64,000 nt of DNA from NCBI RefSeq assembly GCF_004634425.1, contig NZ_SBJL01000004.1, positions 248,001 through 312,000 on the forward strand, in the 5' to 3' direction. Source of the DNA: Vitreimonas flagellata (lineage in GTDB: Bacteria > Pseudomonadota > Alphaproteobacteria > Caulobacterales > Aquidulcibacteraceae). The notes under the pieces were generated by a model. That model was not told the origin of the DNA, did no database searches, and worked only from the letters and a program-made list of their open reading frames with translations. Within the stretch, counting starts at the first letter, position 1; each line of letters opens with the position of its first letter. This document shows positions 33,378 to 36,800 of this stretch, one piece after another. A program made the translations under genes and the position numbers.

Positions 33378-33728
33378 TTAAGCGACACGGCGCAGCATGT
33401 TGCGGTTGAGGATCGGTGCTTGCGCTTCGAGCACGTCCTTCTCGACGCGTTCACGCGTCTGCGGGTCTTTCACCACGAGGATGTGAATTTCCTTCGCGCC
33501 GAGATTTTGCGCCGCCTGCCACATATCGTGGCGCGCCAGCGTGGTGGAGAAATCATCGGTCTTGGCGACGAACAGCGAAATTGGGCCGCCCCAATCTTGC
33601 TGCTGCTCTTGCGGCTTCACGAACATATAGATTCCGCCCACGGGCTCCCACGCGCGTTGCGCGCGCACGATCTCGAACTCGTACCAACGGCCCGTGCCGC
33701 CCTGCCAAGAAAACGTGTTCGTGCTCAC
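33378..33728 (-). CDS. Hypothetical protein
   Basis: A 116-residue soluble protein with no membrane segment or signal peptide. It begins with an aromatic-rich stretch (WQGGTGRWYEFEIV), then GGIYMFVKP, and ends in a basic helix (NRNMLRRVA). I recognise no domain. An imperfect palindrome of two GANTC sites lies 32 bases upstream of its ATG and could be its promoter. It precedes the yjdM-like gene on the same strand. Confidence 0.6.
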   Translation of the reverse strand: MSTNTFSWQGGTGRWYEFEIVRAQRAWEPVGGIYMFVKPQEQQQDWGGPISLFVAKTDDFSTTLARHDMWQAAQNLGAKEIHILVVKDPQTRERVEKDVLEAQAPILNRNMLRRVA

Positions 33729-33775: not shown

Positions 33776-33854
33776 GGCGCGGTACGAAGGCTAGGCGTTA
33801 GGGCGCGGGATCGAAGCTTACGGTTTGGACATCAGAAGCGTCGAATAACTCTGG

Positions 33855-34585
33855 CTAAAATTCCGCAAGCGCAACGGATTGGCGTTCCGCGTGATCCGGG
33901 CGATCAATCGGCACGATGCGCACATCGACGCGCGCGAAATCCCGCGGGCCTTGTGGAGAAGACGCACGCCACGCGCTGAACGCGGCGCCTTCGGCGTGGA
34001 GCGAATAGCCTTGCGGATCGTGCTCCAGCAGGTCGGACATCAGCACGAGACGACGGCTCGGTATTTCGGCGCCGAAATCAGGATCGGCGGCGACGGCGCG
34101 TAGGCTGGTGATGATCGGCGAGGCGCGCAGGCCCGCCCGATTGCGCCGAGCACAACGCGCTATCGAGCGCGCCGGCGAAATCGTCGTCCCAACGCTGCTA
34201 CGCCATGCGCGCATTCTCAAACAGCGGATTGGTTTGCTCGGGCGGGCGCGGCAGGCAGCGCGAAAAGAGGATCGCGGGCTCCTGCGGTCGGCGCACATTG
34301 AGTCGCATGATCGTGAGGCGATCATATTGGCCAAGCCGCGCGCGTTCTCGTGCCAGCACAGCGCGCAATTTGCGGCGATGGCGCGCCTCAAAACGATCGG
34401 TGGAATCCACCAGCACGATCGTGTGCGCTTGAAGTGGTGCGTCCATGCGGCAGAGCGTTTCTTCGTCCGTCGGTGGGGGCGCAGGAAAAACGTCGCCGCG
34501 CCCAAGCCCCCAACACCAGCATCGCCGCGATGATGGGCACGACGCCCAGCACGTTGCGACCGCCCACGCCGCGCCCGCGTCTCAT
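33855..34585 (-). pseudogene. Broken membrane-anchored VWA-like protein gene
   Basis: Three partial frames give one coherent protein. Frame one runs from ATG 34585: MRRGRGV, then a membrane helix (VLGVVPIIAAMLVLG). Dropping one base in the CCCCC run at 34507-34511 joins it to a second frame that reads VFPAPPPTDEETLCRMDA, then HTIVLVDSTDRFEARHR. That frame meets an in-frame TAG at 34200-34198 but continues sensibly as QRWDDDFAGALDSALCSA. Dropping one more base at about 34120-34135 joins it to SPIITSLRAVAADPDFG, RRLVLMSDLLEHDPQGYSLH and the TAG stop. The repaired length is 242 residues. The HTIVLVDSTD and LVLMSDLLE strands look like a Rossmann/VWA-type fold. It overlaps the upstream membrane gene as ATGA. 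It is most likely inactive, unless the bases are sequencing errors. Confidence 0.7.
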
Positions 34586-35961
34586 GCGGCCGCGCCCGCG
34601 TCGAGACGTGCAGCGGCGTCTTCGAGATCGCGCAGCAGGCCTTCCAACGCCTGCGTCGATTGCTTCTGCGCCTCTTCAAGGCGCGCACGCGCATCGTCGA
34701 TCATCGACGCCGAGGGGCCCAGCGCATCGAGCGAGGGGCCGACGATGGGTGGCGGCACGCTGAAATAGGGCGGCGCCGGCGTGGTGCGGACGGCGGCGTT
34801 TTCTTGGCGATAGATGTGGATCGCGCCGGCTGCGGCCTCATCAAGCGCGCGCGCTTTGGAATCCAGCGTCTCCATTTTGAGCGCGGCGGTGTCGAAGGCT
34901 TTGCTCATCGCCTCGTACTCGGCGCGCATTTTTTCGAGCCGCGCGGCCAGCGCGATTTTCGCGGCCTCGATCGGCGCCTCCAGCTCACGTCGCGCTTCGG
35001 CGCGGAGATCGGAGAGTGCATGCGCGGCGTCCTGGGCCGCGCGGTCCATCTTGCCGAAATCTGGATAGGGATCGTCGAAGCCGGAATAGCCTTTGCGCGT
35101 GGCGAACACCCAGACGCCGGCGCCGAGCATCAACAGGATAATGGCTTGCGGTGAATCCAATTGCAGCAGCGACCAGAAACGGAAGCTCGCACCGGAGCCC
35201 AAGTCCACTTCGCGCCCGGCCATCGCCGCCATCTGATCGCGCCAATCGGCGGCGAAGAGATTGAGCATCAACGCCAGCGCGGTGAACAGCGCGAACGCGA
35301 ATCCGCCCAACACTTTGATCGGCAGCTTGATGTGCTGCAGGTAACGCAGGCCCAAAAAGCCCGCGAGATAGCCGAGCGTGACGTTTGCGCCGGAGAGCCC
35401 AATCGCGGTGATGGCGTCGCCCAGCAAGCCGCGCGCATCGTCCTCGGCGAAGAGTGCGGCGCTGAACAAAGCTTCGAACACCGCAGCACACAACAGCAGC
35501 CCCGCCTGCAACAGCGTCGAACTCGGATAGACGGCGCCGCGGCGCAATTGGTTGGCCTTCTTGAATGCATCGAGATCGGCGCGCGCTTGCGCAGCGCGGT
35601 CGGCGGCCTCGCCCCAATCATGGCCGACGCGGCCGGCGGCTTGTTTCAGCGCCAGCCGCGCATCGAGTGCTGGGCCGGCGAAATCCTGTGGCGTTGGCGC
35701 AAGTGCGCGTAAGCGACGTTCCGCTTCAGCCCTCGCTTCGTTGCGGGCTTGATCGACATGCGCGCGTTCGGCGGCGACCGCCTCCAATACGGCGCGCTCG
35801 GCGCTAGAAAGATCCTCGGCATCGTGGCGCGGGGAATTGTGGGCGGCGTCCTCGCGGGCGCGTTTGCGGAGATGGAGCCGCTTCTCCAGCGCCGAAGTGC
35901 TGAAGCCTTGCGGCGGTTTGGCCGCGCGCTCATTGGCCCTGGCTTGCCCGCCGCCGTCCAT
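34582..35961 (-). CDS. Coiled-coil membrane protein of unknown function
   Basis: A 459-residue protein. The first 150 residues are helical, Ala/Arg/Glu-rich and probably coiled coil. About four membrane helices follow in the middle (starting near AGLLLCAAVFEALFSAALF, then VTLGYLAGFLGLRYL, GGFAFALFTALALMLNLF, and AIILLMLGAGVWVF). A second long coiled coil follows (about residues 320-410), then a Pro-rich linker and another helix. No known domain is recognised. ATG 35961 is chosen because GGGAG precedes it; a GTG at 36030 is in frame. The stop overlaps the start of the broken VWA-like gene (ATGA), so they form a two-gene unit. Confidence 0.7.
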   Translation of the reverse strand: MDGGGQARANERAAKPPQGFSTSALEKRLHLRKRAREDAAHNSPRHDAEDLSSAERAVLEAVAAERAHVDQARNEARAEAERRLRALAPTPQDFAGPALDARLALKQAAGRVGHDWGEAADRAAQARADLDAFKKANQLRRGAVYPSSTLLQAGLLLCAAVFEALFSAALFAEDDARGLLGDAITAIGLSGANVTLGYLAGFLGLRYLQHIKLPIKVLGGFAFALFTALALMLNLFAADWRDQMAAMAGREVDLGSGASFRFWSLLQLDSPQAIILLMLGAGVWVFATRKGYSGFDDPYPDFGKMDRAAQDAAHALSDLRAEARRELEAPIEAAKIALAARLEKMRAEYEAMSKAFDTAALKMETLDSKARALDEAAAGAIHIYRQENAAVRTTPAPPYFSVPPPIVGPSLDALGPSASMIDDARARLEEAQKQSTQALEGLLRDLEDAAARLDAGAAA

Positions 35962-36047: not shown

Positions 36048-36800
36048 TTGAGCGATTTACGCGATCTCTTGGCTATCGCCGTAGCCGCCGCCATCGAGGC
36101 AGGCGCCGCTTTGAAGACCCATCGCACCGCCTGGAGCGTGGTCGCCGCCGAGGAGGGCCGCGAGGTCAAAATCGACGCTGACAAGCATGCTGAAGCCTTG
36201 ATCCTCGCCGCTTTGGAGAAAGCCTCGCCCTATGCCGTGATCTCGGAGGAGGCCGGCTGGGTGCGCGCGACCGAGCGCGGCGATCGCTTTATCTGGGCGG
36301 TCGATCCACTTGACGGCAGCGTCAATTATTTGCGCGACTATCCGCATTGCGCGGTTTCGATCGCATTGCTCGATAATGGCCAGCCCATCCTGGGCGTCGT
36401 CGATTGCTTTGCTCTAAACGAGCGCTTCACCGGCATCGTCGGCGAAGGCGCCTGGCTGAACGGCGCACCGATGCGCGTGTCGCAGATCGACGCGCCGTCG
36501 AGCGGCATTTTGCAGACTGGAGTTCCGTCGCGCGCGACGCCAGAATCGATGCTTCTGTTCGAAGAGCGTCTGAAAACATGGCGTAAAGTGCGGATGATCG
36601 GCTCGGCTGCCTCTGCGCTGGCGTATGTCGCGGCCGGACGCGCCGAAGCGTACCGTGAATCAGGTTCCATGATTTGGGACGTGGCCGCCGGTTGCGCATT
36701 GGTGAAGGCGGCGGGCGGAGAGTTCCGTATCAGCGGTGGTCGTCTCGACCGTCCACTCGAAGTGGCCGCATGTAACGCACGTGTCACATTGCCGGACTAA
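36048..36800 (+). CDS. Inositol-monophosphatase-family phosphatase
   Basis: Mg2+-dependent sugar-phosphatase of 250 residues. Metal-binding blocks are visible: ISEEAGW (an EE pair), WAVDPLDGSVNYLR (DPxDG) and WDVAAGCALV, the WDxAAG motif typical of inositol monophosphatase and CysQ-like enzymes. The natural substrate is open (inositol phosphate, 3'-phosphoadenosine phosphate or fructose bisphosphate). Translation appears to start at TTG 36048, 7 bases after a GGGAGCAC stretch. It is divergent from the membrane protein gene and lies upstream of a polysaccharide epimerase gene on the same strand. Confidence 0.85.
   Translation: MSDLRDLLAIAVAAAIEAGAALKTHRTAWSVVAAEEGREVKIDADKHAEALILAALEKASPYAVISEEAGWVRATERGDRFIWAVDPLDGSVNYLRDYPHCAVSIALLDNGQPILGVVDCFALNERFTGIVGEGAWLNGAPMRVSQIDAPSSGILQTGVPSRATPESMLLFEERLKTWRKVRMIGSAASALAYVAAGRAEAYRESGSMIWDVAAGCALVKAAGGEFRISGGRLDRPLEVAACNARVTLPD

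Follow-up and report, generated by a model that had tools for sequence, protein, structure and literature searches.

Two adjacent genes on the reverse strand of the window (the whole 64,000-nt stretch of DNA analyzed here) raise the question of whether the second of them is a functional gene or a remnant and, if it is a remnant, which kind of system it once belonged to. The contig belongs to a 3.9-Mb alphaproteobacterial genome in 16 contigs (G000), to which metagenome genomes of Hyphomonadaceae are the closest named relatives. The first gene, encoding a protein with coiled coils and four transmembrane (TM) helices, runs from an ATG at 35961 to a TGA at 34582 without an internal stop, and this TGA shares the tetranucleotide ATGA with the ATG of the downstream gene. 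The overlap had been pointed out in a preliminary description of the locus and is borne out by the sequence; an ATGA or GTGA overlap is also kept in nearly all congeners. The downstream gene of the window, by comparison, is split over three frames. Searching the whole G000 genome with a profile of the intact family yielded exactly two pieces, both at this locus (profile positions 31-151 and 150-257) and each carrying one TAG. An Rfam scan around the locus gave no match.

In congeners, the downstream partner is one open frame of 262-269 codons, which begins at the same ATGA/GTGA start directly downstream of the coil gene. Alignment of the window with congeners, including G023, G005 and G020, identified five disabling lesions, i.e., three indels and two nonsense codons, within one 788-base gene (Table 1). 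Most congeners have an intact single-frame homologue at this position, which excludes chance as an explanation for these pieces. Decay of the second gene, as proposed in the preliminary description, is therefore evident from the congener alignment, but the gene carries five lesions rather than the three originally listed. One extra base had been assumed in the CCCCC at 34507-34511, where the alignment instead revealed two separate one-base losses (lesions 1 and 2); a further extra base, assumed at about 34120-34135, is a two-base loss (lesion 4). The TAG of lesion 3 had been read correctly and replaces a Gln codon, which is CAG in the sister species and CAA or CAG in most other aligned congeners. 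The length of 242 residues given for the repaired protein falls short of the approximately 263 residues indicated by the alignment; the TAG that had been taken as its end is the nonsense codon of lesion 5, at Trp245, a residue present in 63/63 family members covering the position. Like the reading frame preceding the original TAA, homologues of this protein terminate in DPAP or a similar sequence.

Table 1. Features of the locus, in window positions
Feature	Position	Strand	Basis
Gene for coiled-coil/4-TM inner-membrane protein, intact, 459 aa	34582..35961	-	Open frame; same Met start as homologues
Pseudogene of membrane-anchored vWA-like partner, ~263 codons if intact	33798..34585	-	Congener alignment; profile matches
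ATGA stop/start overlap, translational coupling signal	34582..34585	-	Sequence
Lesion 1, net loss of 1 base	34496..34511	-	Congener alignment
Lesion 2, net loss of 1 base in C-run	34475..34479	-	Congener alignment
Lesion 3, Gln codon CAG to TAG	34198..34200	-	Congener alignment
Lesion 4, net loss of 2 bases, next to 34128	34122..34129	-	Congener alignment
Lesion 5, invariant Trp codon to TAG	33855..33857	-	Congener alignment; Tyr in sister species
Original TAA stop of decayed gene, after DPAP	33798..33800	-	In frame with third piece
116-aa gene after the pair, family not assigned	33378..33728	-	No Pfam match
Divergent inositol monophosphatase-family gene, conserved neighbour	36048..36800	+	PF00459, E=5.7e-53

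Across the genus, the locus is carried by 27 of 30 congeners; in G010, G026 and G028 the pair is missing, and its neighbours are represented there by distant paralogues alone. Most species of the genus have an intact pair, and in others it is freshly broken. In a tree of the coil gene, G023 and G000 are sisters, and this grouping is fully supported. In G023 (CP096134.1), the vWA gene has lost 8 bases near its start and has suffered two large deletions that removed both MIDAS aspartates, and the coil gene is also frameshifted, near residue 45 (locus L021, CP096134.1 near 3507570-3509300, a complete-genome record). No lesion is common to G000 and G023. A deletion in G027 (L038:6220-6885, reverse strand) has joined residues 1-63 of the coil protein, in frame, to residues 113-263 of the vWA protein. 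The vWA genes of G029, with one frameshift, and of G015, with several, are also broken, and these may be assembly errors. The gene of G022 (L010) was considered as another frameshifted copy and was ruled out, as its start region proved to be in frame by alignment. A second, divergent pair, with a coil protein of approximately 510-555 aa and a vWA protein of approximately 255 aa, was found intact in at least 10 congeners (L033, L035, L036, L037 and L039), regardless of whether the first pair is broken. This second pair was not found in G000, where the sole family matches are the two pseudogene pieces and the coil gene of the window. With its vWA half dead and no second copy in the genome, the surviving coil gene is therefore an orphan.

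To look for other broken genes, the genes of G020 were mapped onto the window. Among 26 syntenic frames, three were flagged (the vWA gene, a low-identity antisense frame and a frame whose stop lies in an upstream extension), and the vWA gene is the only clearly broken one among approximately 24 syntenic genes compared. Pairwise omega values between the remnant and intact homologues were 0.15-0.23, and those among intact genes were 0.08-0.24. The nearly normal constraint on the remnant, together with its standing as the only clearly broken syntenic gene, therefore points to a recent loss. The earlier suggestion of a recent loss in this strain thus holds as to age, but the loss is not limited to the strain, since broken copies also occur in the sister species and elsewhere in the genus. 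Judged from these alignments, 33798-34585 is a real, recently formed pseudogene that has arisen through ordinary decay.

Alternatively, the organism could have an intact gene, with the breaks introduced by errors in sequencing or assembly. This alternative gains some plausibility from the frame changes in a C-run and in GC-rich repeats, which are typical error sites, and from the fact that the broken copies in G015 and G023 come from long-contig assemblies with possible indel errors. It is nevertheless very unlikely. Of the five lesions, two are not indels but nonsense codons, all five fall in one gene with unbroken neighbours, and whole segments of the same gene, including those with both MIDAS aspartates, are missing from the sister species. 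Expression of an interrupted gene through programmed frameshifting or stop-codon readthrough would fit the near-normal amino acid constraint on the pieces, but it would require several recoding events as well as readthrough of two TAG codons; as all intact relatives use one frame and segments are altogether gone in the sister species, such recoding is hardly conceivable.

The decayed partner had been described as a membrane-anchored VWA-like protein, and the data on the intact family agree. The family keeps two Cys, the Asp in a D-x-T/S-D motif, and Ser-Pro, Ser-Asp and Phe-Trp motifs. MIDAS sites consist of a DxSxS motif, a Thr in a second loop and an Asp in a third loop. Across 67 family members, the MIDAS-type positions are nearly invariant (D61 in 65/65, T/S63 in 64/65, S/T157 in 66/67 and D186 in 66/66); conservation does not extend to the final Ser of DxSxS. 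Comparison of the family with true vWA domains by hhalign gave a probability of 50-60% (E-values of 6.6e-5 to 1.7e-4 for a single comparison), with the Asp, Ser and Asp columns aligned to the MIDAS columns, and unrelated controls in the same comparison reached 0-0.2%. The family resembles vWA/MIDAS proteins of the Pfam VWA_2/VWA type in its Asp, Thr/Ser, Ser/Thr and Asp residues and in its profile columns, but differs from them in having mostly D-x-T/S-D instead of DxSxS, two additional conserved Cys, the FW motif and an N-terminal anchor. The Pfam vWA models did not detect the family. These observations support a vWA-like, membrane-anchored partner family with a putative MIDAS-type site; the fold is a prediction based on the pattern of conserved residues and on a weak similarity of profiles. 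The predicted domain is probably periplasmic, Cys46 and Cys111 are likely to form a disulfide, and the membrane helix has no conserved acidic residue. An AlphaFold model built from two sequences was poor (pLDDT 40).

In the coil protein, two coiled-coil regions flank four hydrophobic segments; identity to the congener proteins is 65-87%. Comparison with MotA_ExbB/TolQ profiles by hhalign gave probabilities of 0.1-0.4%, and homology was not found; an AlphaFold model from few sequences was again poor (pLDDT 47). Neither gene had a significant match in Pfam and NCBIfam scans, which assigned no family to either, and PDB profile searches returned only coiled-coil or chance matches. Viral contigs contained no match, and a plasmid search with the coil protein gave none.

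Within a class-wide sample of 289 genomes, vWA matches were found in 17 and coil matches in 15, with both in 14. Of 49 alphaproteobacterial loci that were inspected closely, 46 have the coil gene immediately upstream of the vWA gene and on the same strand, so the possibility that homologues of the two genes are never neighbours fails and the earlier view of a coupled, uncharacterized membrane pair stands. Since the surroundings of the pair otherwise vary, the pair itself can be regarded as the unit. In 20 loci (L097-L104, L106, L109-L112, L114 and L116-L121), mostly from rhizobial-type, Paracoccus and related genomes and plasmids, the two genes open a four-gene operon in which the coil/4-TM and vWA genes are followed by a third gene, encoding four TM segments with a coiled-coil tail, and a fourth, encoding a TM segment with an OmpA domain. 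The OmpA domain passes the cut-off (1.7e-6), the helix of the fourth protein contains an acidic residue, and this protein matches ZorB at 8e-6. The third protein matches ZorA weakly and mainly in the coiled-coil tail; with TolQ/ExbB profiles, hhalign gave it 0.1-0.4%, no significant match, and by eye it may resemble TolQ helices 3 and 4. A staphylococcal-nuclease-like (thermonuclease-like) gene was found near the operon in 5 of 7 annotated plasmid loci. The loci of the window genus consist of the pair only, without the third and fourth genes.

Taken together, the gene in the window is very probably a recent pseudogene, which in its intact state was the second member of a conserved envelope module of two genes. 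For this module, the following mechanism can be proposed. The first gene would supply the coiled-coil protein with four TM helices, and the second, coupled to it by ATGA, a protein in which one N-terminal membrane helix precedes a vWA-like domain, probably periplasmic, with a putative MIDAS-type metal site formed by Asp61, Thr/Ser63, Ser157 and Asp186 and a likely disulfide between Cys46 and Cys111. Both proteins most likely form a complex in the inner membrane. Its metal-dependent vWA domain would bind a ligand in the periplasm or cell wall, and on the cytoplasmic face the coil protein would relay or anchor this binding. The OmpA-domain/4-TM pair of many alphaproteobacteria probably joins and perhaps energizes the complex, in a layout like that of the MotAB/TolQR/ZorAB ion-driven stators.

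Zorya consists of adjacent ZorA and ZorB plus a ZorC/D or ZorE effector, and MotB and TolR have an acidic residue in their helix. The 20 relatives with 4-TM/coil and TM/OmpA genes after the pair are similar to Zorya ZorA/ZorB and to MotAB/TolQR in this respect; the pair in the window differs from these systems, as it has no motor genes alongside and no ZorC, ZorD or ZorE was seen. Membrane-tethered vWA proteins encoded beside TolQ-like genes have also been described as putative force transducers (PMC12204202, Mol Biol Evol 2025), with a trans-pore helix carrying a conserved Asp, a TolQ-like partner and heterologous vWA pairs. The module described here is comparable in that a vWA protein anchored by a single helix is encoded tightly beside a multi-TM inner-membrane protein, but, going by that description, it differs in lacking the helix Asp and the TolQ-like partner and in having one vWA gene.

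The pair could further be the core of an undescribed alphaproteobacterial envelope machine, in which a metal-dependent periplasmic vWA sensor or transducer works with a dedicated coil/4-TM partner, the full form having an ion-powered pair, similar to MotAB/ZorAB, as its drive and a nuclease linked to it, and the window lineage, without motor genes, now losing the rest; we regard this as possible though rather doubtful. That the module is a Zorya-type anti-phage or conflict system, of which the window pair is a reduced and dispensable remnant, appears unlikely. The ZorB and ZorA matches of the fourth and third genes, the nuclease gene of the plasmid loci, the patchy distribution and the repeated loss are all consistent with such a system, but the position of the ZorA matches in the tail argues against it, a PADLOC scan of both window genes gave no match, and the pair of the window genus resides stably on the chromosome, flanked by housekeeping-type genes and without a motor or nuclease gene next to it. 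Somewhat less likely again is that the function rests with the coil protein alone, the vWA protein being an accessory dispensed with in several strains. The coil gene is indeed intact in G000, G029 and G015, where the vWA gene is broken, and its omega against the sister species is 0.097. The two genes are otherwise nearly inseparable, however, and the coil gene is broken too in G023 and G027. As the decay is recent, an intact coil gene may only reflect the short time elapsed, and its low omega mostly reflects the time before decay, because the coil frame of the sister is also broken.

For the preferred reading of a decayed half of a two-gene module, the copy in the window represents ordinary decay, and it is the module, above all its four-gene form, that merits study. 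The pairing is fixed across Alphaproteobacteria, yet neither gene belongs to a Pfam or NCBIfam family, and the four-gene form of rhizobial and Paracoccus plasmids resembles an ion-driven motor of the envelope that includes a vWA component and corresponds to no described family. With its mixture of intact and freshly broken pairs, the genus offers natural knock-outs for testing the function of the module.

Two further observations concern the surroundings of such genes. The multi-TM proteins of gammaproteobacterial-type loci were considered as homologues of the coil protein and set aside, as homology was not demonstrable; in these loci (L123-L128), an OmpA-type lipoprotein gene, the multi-TM gene and a distant vWA-like gene lie in a row. 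The 116-aa gene that follows the pair in the window adjoins it in three genera (the window genus and those of L024 and L025), and distant paralogues of this gene exist.
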